DNA of 64,000 nt, taken from Hyphomicrobium zavarzinii ATCC 27496 (GTDB taxonomy: Bacteria; Pseudomonadota; Alphaproteobacteria; Rhizobiales; Hyphomicrobiaceae). The stretch is taken from positions 410,558 through 474,557 of the forward strand of contig NZ_KB911257.1 in the NCBI RefSeq assembly GCF_000383415.1, given 5' to 3'. Of this stretch, positions 33,838 through 40,691 are shown piece after piece. Under the pieces are notes generated by a model. It saw nothing but the letters and a program-made list of their open reading frames with translations, was not told where the DNA came from and searched no databases. The translations under genes were made by a program, and so were the position numbers. Positions within the stretch are counted from its first letter, which is position 1, and every line of letters begins with the position of its first letter.

Positions 33838-33930
33838 GGTAGGGTCCTGTCGCTTCTTGTCCTGTGTCTCAGATGAGCGCGCACAGCACGAAGACGTTCC
33901 GATTCATTTCTTACGGTGCCGAGACTAGCC

Positions 33931-35277
33931 ATGGCCCAATCCTCAGAGCCAACCATTTTCGCGCTGGCCAGCGCACCGGGGCGTGCGGGGGTCGCGGTGG
34001 TGCGCATCTCCGGGAGCGGTGCCGGGCGGGTGATCGACTTCATGGCCGGTCCGCGCGCGGAAGCGCGCCGCGCCGTGGGGCGCTTCGTCCGTCATCCTGA
34101 AAGCGGCGAGAAGCTGGACCGCGGCGTGGTGATCTGGTTACCCGGACCCAAGAGCTTCACCGGCGAGGATGTGGCGGAGCTTCACCTGCACGGCGGACGG
34201 GCGGTGGTGGACGCGGTGCTCTCGGCGCTGTCCATCATGCCGGGATTGCGGATGGCCGAGCCCGGCGAGTTTGCGCGCCGCGCGTTCGAGGCGGGGAAGC
34301 TCGATCTCGCGGAGGTGGAGGGGCTTGCCGATCTCATCGATGCCGAGACGGAGGGGCAACGCCGGCAGGCTCTCGCCCAGGCCTCGGGTGTGCTGTCGGA
34401 TCTCTACGACGGGTGGCGCGCCAGCCTGATCGAGGCGCTTGGTCTCATCGAAGCAGGGCTCGATTTCGCCGATGAAGGCGACATCGGCGCCAAGACGTTC
34501 ACCGATGCACGAGCCATCATCCAGGTGCTCGCGCGTTCGGTGAACCATCACCTCGAGGATGGTCATCGCGGAGAGATCCTGCGCCACGGGTTTCGGGTGG
34601 CGCTCACGGGCCCGCCCAACGCCGGGAAGTCGAGTCTCCTGAATGCGCTGGCGCGGCGCGACGTGGCGATCGTTTCTGCCGAAGCCGGGACGACCCGCGA
34701 CGTCGTCGAAGCGCGGCTCGATCTCGGCGGCCTCCCTGTGATCGTCTCGGATACGGCGGGCTTCCGGGATGCGGAGGGGGCCATCGAGCGGGAAGGCATG
34801 CGGCGGAGCAAGGCGGTGGCGGAGGCGGCCGACCTGGTGCTGTGGCTGACCGATGCGACCGAGCCGCAGACCTTGCTGCCGCCGGACCTCGCGGCCGTAG
34901 CCGACCGGACGCTGCTCGTGCTCAACAAGATCGATCTCCTGCCTGGCGGTGAGGCGCCTGCCTTGCCCGACGACATGGTGCCGCTTTCGGTGGAGACGGG
35001 CGCGGGTGTCACGGAGCTCATCGAGCGCCTTACGGTGATCGCTCGCGAGCGGATCGGTCACCAGGAGGAGCCCGCGCTCACACAGGTCCGTCACCGGAAG
35101 CTCGTCGAGGCGTGCCGGGACAATCTCGATGCGTTCCTGCTGGGTTCACCGGATGAGGTTGAGCTTCGCGCGGAGGATCTGCGCCGTGCGGCGGATGCGC
35201 TGGGGCGCATCACCGGACGGGTGGACGTGGAGGACGTGCTGGATCACATCTTCGGCCGTTTCTGTATCGGGAAATGA
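33931..35277 (+). CDS. mnmE: tRNA uridine-5-carboxymethylaminomethyl(34) synthesis GTPase
   Basis: Works with MnmG to modify U34 of several tRNAs. The N-terminal tetrahydrofolate-binding domain begins TIFALASAPGRAGVAVVRIS, a helical domain follows, and the embedded G domain has GPPNAGKSSLLNALA (about 225), TTRDVV, DTAGFRDAEG and LNKID. The protein ends with the essential Cys in FCIGK. The ATG at 33931 is preferred over GTG at 33916 because the conserved domain starts directly after it. Length 448 residues. Confidence 0.96.
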   Translation: MAQSSEPTIFALASAPGRAGVAVVRISGSGAGRVIDFMAGPRAEARRAVGRFVRHPESGEKLDRGVVIWLPGPKSFTGEDVAELHLHGGRAVVDAVLSALSIMPGLRMAEPGEFARRAFEAGKLDLAEVEGLADLIDAETEGQRRQALAQASGVLSDLYDGWRASLIEALGLIEAGLDFADEGDIGAKTFTDARAIIQVLARSVNHHLEDGHRGEILRHGFRVALTGPPNAGKSSLLNALARRDVAIVSAEAGTTRDVVEARLDLGGLPVIVSDTAGFRDAEGAIEREGMRRSKAVAEAADLVLWLTDATEPQTLLPPDLAAVADRTLLVLNKIDLLPGGEAPALPDDMVPLSVETGAGVTELIERLTVIARERIGHQEEPALTQVRHRKLVEACRDNLDAFLLGSPDEVELRAEDLRRAADALGRITGRVDVEDVLDHIFGRFCIGK

Positions 35278-35297
35278 GCGCGCATTTCGGCATGAAG

Positions 35298-35313
35298 TGT
35301 TTCACGTGAATCC
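35298..35313. promoter_or_regulatory. parS-like site 1
   Basis: TGTTTCACGTGAATCC matches the universal ParB site TGTTTCACGTGAAACA except for the 3' end (AATCC in place of AAACA). First of five same-oriented copies downstream of mnmE. Confidence 0.75.
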
Positions 35314-35417
35314 TCCGGTTCCGGATAATGAATATCCGGTGGACGGTTCAGAAAGGCGCGTCGATGCCGGAGCATTTGGTCCGGAATTTCCGGTGGTGAT
35401 GGATTTTCGGCACGGAA

Positions 35418-35433
35418 TGTTTCACGTGAATCC
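35418..35433. promoter_or_regulatory. parS-like site 2
   Basis: TGTTTCACGTGAATCC, identical to site 1 and starting 120 bp after it. The site runs directly into five tandem copies of TCCG (35431-35450). Confidence 0.75.
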
Positions 35434-35450
35434 GTCCGTCCGTCCGTCCG
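35431..35450. repeat. Tetranucleotide repeat (TCCG)5
   Basis: Five perfect tandem TCCG units begin at the last three bases of parS-like site 2. It is non-coding. Such repeats can vary in number by slippage. Confidence 0.85.
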
Positions 35451-35543
35451 GGCTTGAGCGCGTGCGCGCTGCCGGATCGTGCACGCGCATCGGAGACGCG
35501 GTTGCTGTTTGTCGTGCCGCCGGATGCTTCGTCCGGCATAATT

Positions 35544-35559
35544 TGTTTCACGTGAATCC
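35544..35559. promoter_or_regulatory. parS-like site 3
   Basis: TGTTTCACGTGAATCC, identical to sites 1 and 2, starting 126 bp after site 2. Confidence 0.75.
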
Positions 35560-35584
35560 ATTTTTCCGGCGAAACGGCATCCAA

Positions 35585-35600
35585 TGTTTCACGTGAATCC
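35585..35600. promoter_or_regulatory. parS-like site 4
   Basis: TGTTTCACGTGAATCC, identical to sites 1-3, starting 41 bp after site 3. Confidence 0.75.
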
Positions 35601-35636
35601 AAAATTGCGCGTTTCGCGCCGACATGCGGCACGCGA

Positions 35637-35652
35637 TGTTTCACGTGAATCA
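35637..35652. promoter_or_regulatory. parS-like site 5
   Basis: TGTTTCACGTGAATCA, starting 52 bp after site 4. It ends 11 bp before the stop codon of the convergent lipoprotein gene. Only the final base differs from the other four copies. Confidence 0.75.
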
Positions 35653-35663
35653 TCGAAACGGCT

Positions 35664-36107
35664 CTATCGGCTGACGAGGCCGGACATGATTTCGGAGTTG
35701 GATGCCAGCGCCGACATGCCCGGGTCCTCCTCGGCGGCCGGGGCGGTGCGGGCGATCTGTCCCTTTGGCTGGCAGCGCTCCTTCGCCAGAGTGAGGAGGT
35801 ATTCGTTGCGCTGGGAGAGTGCGCGCGCCTCCTGTCCCGCTGCGTCCTGAAAGTCGAGGCCGAGCCAGGCGGGCCAGGCCATGAAGCCGACGATCCCGGC
35901 GGTGACGTTCTGCCCGAACTTCCACTGCTGCTCGGTGGCCAGATCGGAGATCTTCTGGTTGTTGACCTTGGTCTCTGCCGCGATCTGGTCGCAAGCTATG
36001 CTGCGGTCGGTGGCATGGAAGAGGGGCGGGATCTGCGGTGCGCGCCCGGCGCAGGCGCCGAGCGTGAGGGTGAGCAACGCAATGCTTCCCGCTTGGTACT
36101 TCGACAT
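35664..36107 (-). CDS. Small lipoprotein of unknown function
   Basis: The 147-residue product starts with a lipoprotein signal MSKYQAGSIALLTLTLGAC with lipobox LGAC (Cys 19). A helical segment (CDQIAAETKVNNQKISDLA) is followed by a short hydrophobic stretch (TAGIVGFMAWPAWLGLDFQ) and a second helix with RNEYLLTLAKERC. This resembles small entry-exclusion or inner-membrane lipoproteins often seen as singletons in alphaproteobacteria, but I cannot name the family. The frame is open upstream to 36500, but the ATG at 36107 is the only start giving a proper signal. It lies between mnmE and mnmG, against their direction. Confidence 0.7.
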   Translation of the reverse strand: MSKYQAGSIALLTLTLGACAGRAPQIPPLFHATDRSIACDQIAAETKVNNQKISDLATEQQWKFGQNVTAGIVGFMAWPAWLGLDFQDAAGQEARALSQRNEYLLTLAKERCQPKGQIARTAPAAEEDPGMSALASNSEIMSGLVSR

Positions 36108-36336
36108 CGATAGCCCCCCGACAATCGCGACGGGGCTAGCCTGCGGGTGACAAAGTGGCGCCGGCAAGATCGGTGCGGCATAGACCTGTGCGTTGTCCTC
36201 CGTATCCACATGAAATGGGGCGGAGGCGTTCGGAGAAGGGAGCCTGCGACAGGGATGCGGGTCGCTTTGACCGTGGAGCCACCCTCCTGTATCTCTCCGC
36301 CATTGTTGCAGGCGCGCAGGATTGGGTGATCGGCAG

Positions 36337-38211
36337 ATGGCCGAGAGAAGCTTCGACGTGATCGTTGTCGGTGGCGGCCACGCGGGTGTGGAAGCCGCGG
36401 CTGCGGCCGCGCGCATGGGCGCCTCGGTGGCGCTCGTCACCCACCGTTTCGAGACCATCGGCGAGATGTCGTGCAATCCGGCTATCGGCGGTCTCGGCAA
36501 AGGTCATCTCGTGCGGGAGATCGATGCGCTCGACGGGCTCATGGGGCGCGTCGCGGACGCGGCAGGCATTCAATTCCGCCTTCTCAATCGTTCGAAGGGA
36601 CCGGCGGTGCAGGGGCCGCGCGCGCAGGCCGACCGGGCGCTCTATCGGGCGGCGATGCAGCAGGCAATCCGGGAGACCGGTGGTCTTGTGGTCATCGAAG
36701 GCGCGGTCGAGGACCTGGTGGTGACTGGCGATGTGGTCGGCGGGATCATCACCCAGACGGGCGAGCGAATGCTGGCCGGTTCCGTGGTGTTGACGACTGG
36801 AACATTTCTCAATGGTCTCATCCACTTAGGAGATCAGACTCATCCGGCTGGACGGGTGGGTGACGCGCCCGCGCTGAAGCTCTCCGAGCGCCTCTATGGG
36901 CTGGGGCTCAAGATGGGCCGTCTCAAGACCGGCACGCCAGCGCGGCTCGATCGCCGGTCGATCGACTGGGATGGTCTTCCGCAGCAGGAGGCGGATGCCG
37001 ATCCGGTGCCGTTCTCTTTTCTGACGAACGCAATCACCAATCCGCAAGTGACGTGCGCGATCACCACAACCAGCGAGGCGACGCACGCGATCATACGCGC
37101 CAATCTCGCGCGTTCGCCCATGTACTCCGGGCAAATCGCCTCGCGCGGTCCCCGCTATTGCCCGTCGATCGAGGACAAGGTGGTGCGGTTCGCCGACCGC
37201 AGCGCGCATCAAGTGTTCCTGGAGCCGGAAGGCCTCGATGACGACACCGTCTATCCGAACGGGGTCTCGACGTCGCTTCCAGCCGATGTTCAGGAGGCTT
37301 TTCTCAAGACACTTCCGGGACTTGAGAAGGTTGTCCTCAAGCGTCCAGGCTATGCGATCGAGTACGACTACGTCGATCCCCGCGAGCTTCTGCCGACTCT
37401 CGAGACCAAGCGGCTCAAGCGACTTTTCCTTGCGGGGCAGATCAACGGCACGACGGGATATGAGGAGGCGGGCGCGCAAGGCTTGGCCGCCGGCATCAAT
37501 GCTGCGCTCGTTGCGGCAGGGGGCGTGCGTACGTTCGTCGTGTCGCGCGCGGATGCCTATCTGGGCGTCATGATCGACGATCTCGTCACGCGGGGGGTCA
37601 CCGAGCCCTATCGCATGTTCACGTCGCGGGCCGAGTATCGTTTGCGGCTTCGCGCAGACAATGCAGATCAACGACTTACGCCAATGGGCGAACAAATCGG
37701 CTGTGTGACCTCGTTACGTTCACGGTCGTATTCCAATAAAAACAAGATGTTATCAGAAATAGCTAATGTTCTTTCTCAAAAAACGCTCACACCGACAGAA
37801 GCGGAACGAAACGGAATCGAAATCAACAAGGACGGAAGGCGGCGAAACGCGTTCGAGCTTCTCTCTTATCCTGACATGACTTTCTGCCGCTTGGCTGAGA
37901 TTTGGCCTGAGCTGGCGAATTTCGATCCGGCGCTTGCGGCTCAGACAGAAATTGACGCTCGGTACGACTCCTATGTGCGCCGGCAGGAGGCGGACGTGGC
38001 GGCGCTCAAAAAGGACGAGGCCATCGCCATTCCGGCGTCTTTTGATTATGCAACTCTGCCGAGTCTCAAGGCAGAGCTTCGGGCGAAGCTCGAAGCGCAG
38101 CGGCCGGCTACGCTGGCCCAGGCCGGAAAGATCGAGGGCATGACGCCGGCTGCGCTCATGCTCATTCTGGCCACGCTCAAGAAGCAAATTCCGCGGAAAC
38201 GCGCGTCATGA
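36337..38211 (+). CDS. mnmG: tRNA uridine-5-carboxymethylaminomethyl(34) synthesis enzyme MnmG (GidA)
   Basis: FAD protein that forms the MnmE-MnmG complex for U34 modification. The dinucleotide-binding motif [20 protein letters not shown] is at residues 7-26. Signature blocks are [36 protein letters not shown], and the later [12 protein letters not shown]-like [17 protein letters not shown]. It ends with the helical MnmE-binding domain. ATG 36337 is preferred over an in-frame TTG at 36322. A patch at 37741-37800 (near residues 469-488) drops to about 35% GC (hand count). The stop overlaps rsmG as ATGA. Confidence 0.96.
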
Positions 38212-38882
38212 CAGCGGCTTCGGGGGCTTCCGGCCGGATCGACACGGCGGAGGCGTTTCAGGGCGCCTTTGCCGTTTCACGTGAAACGATAGACCGGCTT
38301 CGCACCTACGAGGCGCTGCTCAGGAGCTGGCAAAAAGTCATCAATCTGGTTTCGCCTACGACCCTGGACGAAATCTGGCACCGGCATTTTGTGGATTCGG
38401 CCCAGCTTCTGGCGTTCGCGCCCGAGGGAGCAAAAAACTGGCTCGATCTGGGCTCGGGCGGCGGCTTTCCGGGTCTCGTGCTGGCAATTTTGCTCGCGGA
38501 GAAAAATTCCGACGCCCGAATGACCCTGGTCGAGTCCGATACGCGCAAGGCGGCTTTCCTCGGCGAGGTGGCCCGGAAAACGGGGCTTGCTGTGGAGATT
38601 CGCGGGGAGCGGATCGAAAAGTCCGCGACTCAGGCTAAGTCTCAGATAAAAGACGTGATCACGGCGCGTGCGCTGGCGCCTTTGCCGAAGCTTCTGGGGC
38701 TCGTTCAGCCGTTTTTTTCTCCCCAGACCGTGGCCTTGTTTCCTAAAGGCCGGGACGCGGAGGCGGAAGTCAGCGAGGCAGAACGGCAGTTCGCCTTCGA
38801 TTACACGCTTGCTCCGAGCCTGACGGACGCTCAGGCGCGCATTGTGATAGTGCGAAATTTGGCTTTGAGGACGGAGGGTTAG
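38208..38882 (+). CDS. rsmG: 16S rRNA (guanine(527)-N(7))-methyltransferase
   Basis: SAM-dependent methyltransferase for G527 of 16S rRNA (GidB). The SAM-binding block [21 protein letters not shown] is intact, followed by [38 protein letters not shown] is the substrate-side motif. Overlaps mnmG by 4 nt. A perfect palindromic parS occupies the codons for residues VSRET near position 23, so the N-terminal sequence is constrained by both functions. Length 224 residues. Confidence 0.95.
38273..38288. promoter_or_regulatory. parS site (perfect palindrome) within rsmG
   Basis: CGTTTCACGTGAAACG is a perfect 16-bp palindrome containing GTTTCACGTGAAAC, the core recognised by chromosomal ParB proteins across bacteria. 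It is about 600 bp upstream of parA and 2.6 kb from the five imperfect sites. Confidence 0.9.
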
Positions 38883-38886
38883 ACCC

Positions 38887-39711
38887 GTGACTGGCCTCGG
38901 TACGAAACTTAGGGCGCTGGCGGTCGCCAATCAGAAGGGCGGCGTCGGCAAGACCACGACAGCGATCAATTTGGGCACGGCGCTGGCCGCGATCGGCGAG
39001 CGCGTGCTTGTTATCGACCTCGATCCGCAGGGAAACGCCTCGACCGGCCTCGGCGTGCCGCCGGAAGCGCGGACGCGGACATCTTATGATGCCGTAATGG
39101 GCACGGTTAGCCTCTCGGAAGCGGCGGTTCAGACTGCAATTCCTGGACTTTTTGTCGTTCCGGCGAACTCGGACCTAGTGGGTCTCGAATCGGATCTCTC
39201 GGGCGATGTGAGCCGTGCTTACAAGCTTCGCGACGCGGTGGCAGCGCTGGCCGCGCAATCTCGCGGCAAGCCGGCCGATCAGGCCTTCAAATACGTACTG
39301 ATCGACTGTCCGCCCTCGCTCAACATCCTGACTTTGAACGCGCTGGCTGCCGCGGATGCCGTTTTGGTACCCGTGCAGTGCGAATTTTTCGCGCTGGAAG
39401 GTATTTCTCAGCTCAAGGACACGATCGACCAGATCCGCGCGACGCTCAATCCGAGCCTGGAAATCCAAGGCGTCGTGCTGACCATGCATGACGCGCGGAC
39501 CACGCTTTCGCGCGAAGTCGCGGACGAAGTCCGGGCCTTCTTCGGCCCCAAGGTCTACGAATCCGTGATTCCGCGAAATACGCGGGTCGCGGAGGCCCCG
39601 TCGCACGGCAAGCCGATCCTGCTTTACGATTACGATTGCGCCGGGAGCCAAGCCTATATCCGTCTCGCGACCGAGATCATCGAGCGCGAACGTCAAACCA
39701 AAGCCGCGTAA
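38887..39711 (+). CDS. parA: Chromosome partitioning ATPase ParA
   Basis: Segregation ATPase acting with ParB and parS. NQKGGVGKTTTAINLGTALA is the deviant Walker A (residues 15-34), VLVIDLDPQGNASTGLG is switch I, and VLIDCPPSLNILTLNAL is Walker B. The short N-terminus is typical of chromosomal rather than plasmid ParA. It starts at GTG 38887, 4 nt after the rsmG stop. Length 274 residues. Confidence 0.96.
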   Translation: MTGLGTKLRALAVANQKGGVGKTTTAINLGTALAAIGERVLVIDLDPQGNASTGLGVPPEARTRTSYDAVMGTVSLSEAAVQTAIPGLFVVPANSDLVGLESDLSGDVSRAYKLRDAVAALAAQSRGKPADQAFKYVLIDCPPSLNILTLNALAAADAVLVPVQCEFFALEGISQLKDTIDQIRATLNPSLEIQGVVLTMHDARTTLSREVADEVRAFFGPKVYESVIPRNTRVAEAPSHGKPILLYDYDCAGSQAYIRLATEIIERERQTKAA

Positions 39712-39800: not shown

Positions 39801-40691
39801 ATGAATTCAGCGCTACCGAAAAGCCGGCTGGGCCGGGGGTTGGCCTCTCTCATTGGGGAATCGCCGCAGGCGCATCCGCGTTTGCCTGCTGAGGGCGAGC
39901 AGCGGCTTGCGCCGGTTGAACAGCTTCGGAGCGGGCGGTTCAATCCGCGCAAGGATTTCGCCGAGCAGGATCTGGCGGAACTCGCTGAATCGATCCGAAC
40001 CAAGGGCTTGGTTCAGCCGATTGTCGTGCGACCGCACCCCGAGGACATGCAGGCTTTCGAGATCGTGGCCGGCGAGCGGCGCTGGCGCGCGTCGCAGAAG
40101 GCCGGCCTGCATATGGTCCCGATCATTGTGCGGGATCTTTCGGACCGCGAGGTTCTCGAACTTGCGATTATCGAAAATGTCCAGCGCGCGGATCTCAACG
40201 CCATCGAAGAGGCGAACGGCTATCGCGAGCTGATCGAGCGGTTCGACTACAGCCAGGAGCAGGTGTCCGAAATCATCGGCAAGAGCCGGAGCCACGTGGC
40301 CAACACGTTGCGGCTGCTCAGGCTTCCGGATTCAGTTCAGGCTTACGTGCAGGAGGGAAAGCTCACTGCCGGGCATGCCCGCGCCCTCGTGGGCCGGGAC
40401 GACGCCGAGGCGCTCGCCCAGCGGATTTTGGAACAGGACCTCAACGTCCGCGAAGCGGAAGCGCTGGTTCAGGCCGGGCCGATTGGCGTGCCGGGCAATA
40501 CGGGTGCGAAGAAGGTTCGAGAGAAGGATCCGGATACAAAAGCCTTCGAGAAAGAGCTGGCGGACTCCCTTGGGCTCAAGGTGGAGGTCAAGCGCGGCTC
40601 GGGCGAGAGCGGAAATCTGGTCATCAAGTACGGCAACTTCGACCAGCTCGACTATATTCGTATGCGCCTGATAGGCATGCCGGGCGGTTGA
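39801..40691 (+). CDS. parB: Chromosome partitioning protein ParB
   Basis: CTP-dependent DNA clamp that loads at parS. The N-terminal ParA-interacting peptide is KSRLGRGLASLIGE. The CTPase domain contains VAGERRWRASQKAGL and IENVQRADLNAIEEA, the parS-reading helix-turn-helix is EQVSEIIGKSRSHVANTLRL, and a dimerisation domain ends the protein. It follows parA after about 90 nt. The parS-like sites of this window are its likely targets. Length 296 residues. Confidence 0.97.
   Translation: MNSALPKSRLGRGLASLIGESPQAHPRLPAEGEQRLAPVEQLRSGRFNPRKDFAEQDLAELAESIRTKGLVQPIVVRPHPEDMQAFEIVAGERRWRASQKAGLHMVPIIVRDLSDREVLELAIIENVQRADLNAIEEANGYRELIERFDYSQEQVSEIIGKSRSHVANTLRLLRLPDSVQAYVQEGKLTAGHARALVGRDDAEALAQRILEQDLNVREAEALVQAGPIGVPGNTGAKKVREKDPDTKAFEKELADSLGLKVEVKRGSGESGNLVIKYGNFDQLDYIRMRLIGMPGG

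Follow-up and report, generated by a model that had tools for sequence, protein, structure and literature searches.

The locus raises the question of why five parS-like sites lying together after mnmE should all deviate from the perfect palindrome at the same base and on the same strand. In the window (the whole 64-kb stretch of DNA that was analysed), a pattern search re-found all five copies of TGTTTCACGTGAATC described by a sequence-only reading (starts 35298, 35418, 35544, 35585 and 35637), every one on the plus strand and with the same single change. The perfect palindrome, which had been placed near 38273, is found at 38274-38287, inside rsmG.

An array of parS-like sites after mnmE

The features of the locus are as follows.

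33916-35277, plus strand: mnmE (trmE), Pfam TrmE_N and MnmE_helical; ends 21 bp before site 1
35299-35312, plus strand: candidate asymmetric parS site 1, GTTTCACGTGAATC; GAATC at 35308-35312, CGGCA at 35288-35292
35419-35432, plus strand: candidate asymmetric parS site 2; GAATC at 35428-35432, CGGCA at the same offset as in site 1
35545-35558, plus strand: candidate asymmetric parS site 3; GAATC at 35554-35558, CGGCA at the same offset as in site 1
35586-35599, plus strand: candidate asymmetric parS site 4; GAATC at 35595-35599, CGGCA at the same offset as in site 1
35638-35651, plus strand: candidate asymmetric parS site 5; GAATC at 35647-35651, CGGCA at the same offset as in site 1
35664-36107, minus strand: 147-aa ORF converging on the array, without a Pfam match
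36322-38211, plus strand: mnmG (gidA), Pfam match
38208-38882, plus strand: rsmG (gidB), Pfam match
38274-38287, no strand assigned: perfect palindromic parS GTTTCACGTGAAAC, inside rsmG, by sequence match
38887-39711, plus strand: parA, AAA_31 and CbiA; named from the match and from its position before parB
39801-40691, plus strand: parB, ParB_N, HTH_ParB and ParB_C; recognition-helix region GKSRSHVANTLRLLRLP, residue 174 is Arg

hemE and rho are located upstream, and the order then runs mnmE, array, ORF, mnmG, rsmG, parA and parB. The array lies within the 386 bp that separate mnmE from the converging ORF at their 3' ends; the start codon of this ORF was picked by eye within a longer listed reading frame (35664-36500). 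If this 147-aa ORF is a gene, the array is placed between two converging 3' ends and so does not look like a promoter. Its distance to parA (38887) is 3.2-3.6 kb, in agreement with the approximately 3 kb to parAB given earlier, and hemE (27503) is 7.8 kb away. Two DnaA box patterns had no match in the 64-kb window. Known RNA elements were also considered for the array and discarded, as an RNA scan of the window gave two tRNAs and one ffh sRNA, all of them elsewhere.

Each of the five spacer copies differs from GTTTCACGTGAAAC by one mismatch and is therefore close to the consensus of chromosomal parS. The half GTTTCAC is intact, and the other half carries T2>A on its own strand, which reads AATC as written. 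Since one half is changed, the perfect dyad symmetry of chromosomal parS is missing from the array sites. This makes them a poorer fit to the consensus; function is still possible, because imperfect parS sites are known. In Caulobacter crescentus the second half, GTGAAA, is the part conserved among the parS sites, so unequal halves have a precedent there (PMC5815017; the comparison is with the figure legend of that article and not with individual site sequences).

With up to three mismatches, 12 matches to parS were found in the window (reverse-strand readings of near-palindromes are counted too) against a mean of 1.02 and a maximum of 4 in 100 shuffles. Scattering of the 15-mer over the genome had been named as something that would speak against the sequence-only reading. 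No such scattering was found: in the whole genome (4.65 Mb, 15 contigs) the exact 14-mer is confined to the five copies after mnmE, with three isolated one-mismatch sites elsewhere.

The flanks of the five copies had been described as unrelated, which is wrong: CGGCA stands exactly five bases before TGTTTC in all of them. Over the 43 exact copies of the genus (eight genomes), flank information peaks at positions -11 to -7, where the best column reaches 37/43, and position -1 is T in 38/43. Positions +15 to +18 give a weaker signal (C at +15 in 27 of the 43 copies), and positions -6 to -3 hold little information. In another genus (g10; L070 and L200) the register of CGGCA is filled by GGTTAA, seen in nine copies from two genomes. 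An upstream block comparable to CGGCA or GGTTAA was absent from the remaining groups compared. Common descent and an additional protein contact are both possible explanations of the CGGCA block.

Some regularity is also seen in the spacing. Neighbouring variant sites recur at 41-44 bp, about four helical turns, in L010-L013, L042, L191, L192 and in the window (35545-35599). In other genera, one perfect site and four or five AATC sites are packed into about 300 bases (L067 1420-1664, L070 1501-1759, L071 1501-1789).

Distribution of the variant in the genus, order and class

A search of related genomes near mnmE, as had been proposed along with the sequence-only reading, placed 42 of the 43 exact genus copies within 2 kb after mnmE, the remaining one being in rsmG of L013; L010-L013 and L042 were assigned to the genus partly through site spacings identical to those of same-genus genomes, and the 43 copies are related by shared ancestry, so that they are not independent counts. 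When up to two mismatches were allowed, the 2-kb interval after mnmE yielded, over the eight genus genomes, one additional degenerate copy (L010), in which AATC is kept, and no perfect site. The parS in rsmG is perfect in all seven genus loci that reach rsmG.

In the family, the variant is present in 55 of 103 genomes, and the reversed control pattern had no match in any of the 103. The other two bases at the changed position account for 10 sites in 8/103 genomes, all of them AAGC. The symmetric palindrome with both halves changed was found in 0/103. Of the 110 genomes of the order sample, 52 carry the variant, representing 37 of 75 genera; about 3.5 chance copies are expected over the 110 genomes. 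Among the 127 variant copies listed for the order, the distance to parB is at most 20 kb for 118 and at most 8 kb for 103. The genome and order counts thus give the clustering near parAB and the origin that is characteristic of chromosomal parS, the position of oriC itself being a candidate one. A chance origin of the array was rejected on the shuffle counts, the genome-wide specificity and the recurrence in the family.

For a comparison with other orders, parB loci were taken from 100 of the 138 class genomes with a ParB match, mostly the better matches, and one of them (L106) was reassigned to the order set; that set comprises L106 and the best 20 of 108 ParB-matching genomes outside the family, and is biased towards the kin of the window. 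The 99 loci of other orders carry 190 perfect sites; among their 26 single-mismatch sites, T4>C accounts for 15 and this variant for 3. The 21 loci of this order carry 36 perfect and 40 single-mismatch sites, and 30 of these 40 are this variant; the difference in share gives a Fisher p of 6e-7, with kinship ignored. In 36 MnmE relatives of mixed orders, 51 perfect and 60 single-mismatch sites were found, the variant making up 50 of the 60. Twenty shuffled palindromes had 4 near-matches altogether in the 100 class loci. Genome, genus and order counts together support the earlier view of the deviation as one conserved by lineage in parS-like sites of the origin region.

In four loci of the order (L209, L210, L216 and L219), an altered centre, GTTTCACATGAAAC or its complement, occurs where others carry the perfect parS.

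The common orientation, to which the sequence-only reading attached possible importance, holds within the genus, where 43 copies have the same direction as mnmE and none the opposite one. It does not extend further. Ten other family loci (L193-L202), selected for carrying the variant, give same and opposite counts of 5/23, the order sample gives 13/15, and MnmE relatives from outside the genus give 16/6, the two variant sites of L204 being left out for want of an MnmE match in that locus. Same-strand orientation as a general rule was rejected on these counts. Overall, what had been observed from the sequence alone is partly confirmed, and its interpretation is supported in part.

The cognate ParB and the methylation motif

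The window encodes a ParB with the helix that reads parS: HTH_ParB is present, and GKSR, Asn168, Arg194 and Gly191 are conserved. Its recognition-helix region is near-identical across the groups compared, and one known DNA-contact position differs, residue 174 (40320-40322 in the window). It corresponds to Caulobacter residue 184 by counting from GKSR (160-163 here, 170-173 in Caulobacter) rather than by alignment. All 37 scored loci of this order (21 order loci and 16 of the 17 family and genus loci) have Lys or Arg at 174, as compared with 3 of 100 in other orders (the 99 class loci and L183, which was added because it bears the variant). Lys at 179 or 184 is described as permissive in PMC7383237, according to which the phosphates contacted by the corresponding lysines of Noc are those of guanine -5 and thymine 2. 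It is thymine 2 that is changed in the array sites. A basic residue 174 beside the changed base would therefore fit the idea that the ParB of this clade tolerates AATC.

Eight of the 21 order loci have Lys or Arg at 174 without the variant, which suggests that the residue may be permissive and is insufficient by itself; the three Lys/Arg loci of other orders also lack the variant. The basic residue probably arose once, at the level of the clade, and its link with the variant may then amount to one phylogenetic event.

The change from GAAAC to GAATC has another consequence, overlooked earlier: it creates GANTC, the CcrM site. By hand count, T2>A is the only one of the 21 possible single changes of the half-site that yields GANTC. 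Between mnmE and mnmG the only GANTCs are the five in the array sites, the total for the 64-kb window being 100. The genome encodes one CcrM-like protein (N6_N4_Mtase and RAMA), and in a set of 14 control genomes a RAMA match was obtained for Caulobacter only. Thus, both the motif and a CcrM-like gene expected for a CcrM-regulated site are present in this genome.

Degenerate copies that combine the variant base with a second mismatch keep GANTC in 12/12 cases, four of them as GAGTC; this retention is a weak indication, since a second mismatch would destroy GANTC at no more than 3 of the 13 other positions (about 4% by hand arithmetic), and homologous pairs account for several of the copies. 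The pattern GTTTCACGTGABWC had 12 matches in the 110 order genomes (9 GAGTC, 1 GATTC and 2 GAGAC). Within 20 kb of parB there are 8 GAGTC from five genera versus 2 GAGAC from one genus, the genera being counted by eye. At even odds this difference is not significant (p is 0.055 when sites are counted and 0.11 when genera are, 5 to 1). With a one-in-four prior, which we chose because perfect sites offer two halves to mutate, p is 0.0004 for sites and 0.005 for genera. The uniqueness of the single change, the GANTCs of the spacer and the counts of degenerate copies and of GAGTC and GAGAC are few, and they tend to favour selection for GANTC.

No association of the variant with CcrM is seen across the class. 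A CcrM match was obtained in 292 of 387 class genomes, and the variant is present in 10/292 with CcrM and 3/95 without, so a class-wide link was rejected. The variant lies 3.4 kb from parB in G170 and 75 bp from a perfect parS in G408, both genomes having no CcrM match, and in G399 it is the only parS-like site in 20 kb. G399 and G408 are counted as lacking CcrM from their absence among the matches; of the 95 genomes lacking a match, 20 are named. Some of the 13 class copies, such as that of G399, may be chance copies. In the CcrM-bearing genomes of other orders the variant is rare, and all six genomes of this order within the class sample have CcrM. CcrM alone does not account for the variant, and the ParB of this order may be a precondition for it.

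Origin and possible role of the asymmetric sites

The asymmetric form could be purely a matter of ParB specificity, with A at position 2 preferred or tolerated in one half-site and GANTC a functionless by-product. We regard this as quite possible, if somewhat short of probable. It agrees with the Lys or Arg at 174 in all 37 order loci, with the lack of a class-wide link between the variant and CcrM and with GTTTCACGTGAGAC, a variant without GANTC that two genomes of a single genus carry about 1.1 kb from the start of parB. However, free tolerance should also give changes in both halves, seen in none of the 103 family genomes. Moreover, changes of the N position near parB mostly accompany the base that makes GANTC (the 8 GAGTC and 2 GAGAC, p 0.055 at even odds), and in the genus AATC is retained by the spacer sites and the perfect form by the rsmG site.

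Copying by descent, whereby slippage or recombination multiplied a single variant site within the spacer and its form and orientation were inherited without selection on the base, would account for several properties of the genus: the common CGGCA, the weaker shared bases at +15 to +18, the recurring 41-44 bp spacings and the uniform orientation. We nevertheless hold it to be unlikely, as most other flank columns are low in information while the 14-mer is common to all 43 copies (it was also the search key), the scan allowing two mismatches added a single degenerate copy after mnmE (that of L010), again with AATC, and other genera have the variant between different flanks. Tandem slippage as the sole cause is also unlikely from the flank comparison. 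Very improbable, in our opinion, is an operator or promoter element of some other DNA-binding protein that merely resembles parS. A lineage-specific element at a fixed distance before the site (CGGCA here, GGTTAA in g10) could be taken for part of such an operator, but the array has converging gene ends on either side, provided that the 147-aa ORF is a gene, and the copies co-locate with parB across the order.

Judging from the sequence comparisons, the array most likely consists of auxiliary parS sites that are asymmetric and on whose form selection acts in this order. The sites would be candidate ParB nucleation sites, additional to the perfect parS of rsmG. The intact half GTTTCAC would supply the specific ParB contact, and the changed half may be accepted by the ParB of this order through the basic residue 174. 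The altered form is probably maintained by selection and not a product of mere drift, the likeliest reason being that it sets a CcrM site, GANTC, within the predicted ParB footprint. In such a case the spacer sites, unlike the site in rsmG, could differ between hemimethylated new DNA and fully methylated DNA. We tentatively propose that the auxiliary centromere sites of Hyphomicrobiales are methylation-sensitive, with the CcrM motif in one ParB half-site causing ParB loading to differ between hemimethylated (new) and fully methylated (old) origins; this is a possibility and not our firm expectation. ParB preference and CcrM-sensitive loading are mutually compatible as reasons for the variant.

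As in the alphaproteobacterial chromosomal systems described in PMC5815017 and PMC6650430, several ParB sites would be present near the origin and parAB; Hyphomonas neptunium is described as having two consensus-matching sites upstream of parAB (PMC6650430). Unlike Caulobacter and H. neptunium as described in these articles, one substitution is common to every spacer copy and to the 43 genus copies here. It also creates GANTC, a motif that individual Caulobacter sites might carry as well. The half-parS sites of Pseudomonas aeruginosa (PMC10419367) offer a likeness in that ParB is described as binding with one arm alone. They are single arms spread genome-wide, whereas those of the array are almost complete and are restricted to the origin region. 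GANTC close to partition sites is reported for repABC replicons, namely the 3parS of Paracoccus pAMI4 (PMC9040568) and ori2 of A. tumefaciens (PMC11514494), and a link with the cell cycle or partitioning is proposed there. There GANTC is near parS or in repABC promoters, and here it is inside chromosomal parS-like sites. In PMC5172544 the parS locus of C. crescentus, with its GANTCs, was used for comparison; the motif is described there at the level of the locus and might or might not lie within a parS. The exact string GTTTCACGTGAATC was not found in the open-licence literature, and the matches listed from open-licence main texts include no report of GANTC within a chromosomal parS.

To our knowledge, it is not settled for ParABS bacteria how origin segregation is tied to the replication state. 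A parS with a cell-cycle methylation motif in its predicted ParB footprint, present in 52 of 110 order genomes, would give a direct test of this tie. The co-occurring ParB residue offers a second, independent test, of the co-evolution of ParB specificity and its sites. If loading is indeed methylation-sensitive, the replication state would be reflected in how many parS sites are active, with the perfect site in rsmG active at all times, and the changed base with its CcrM motif may connect segregation to replication.
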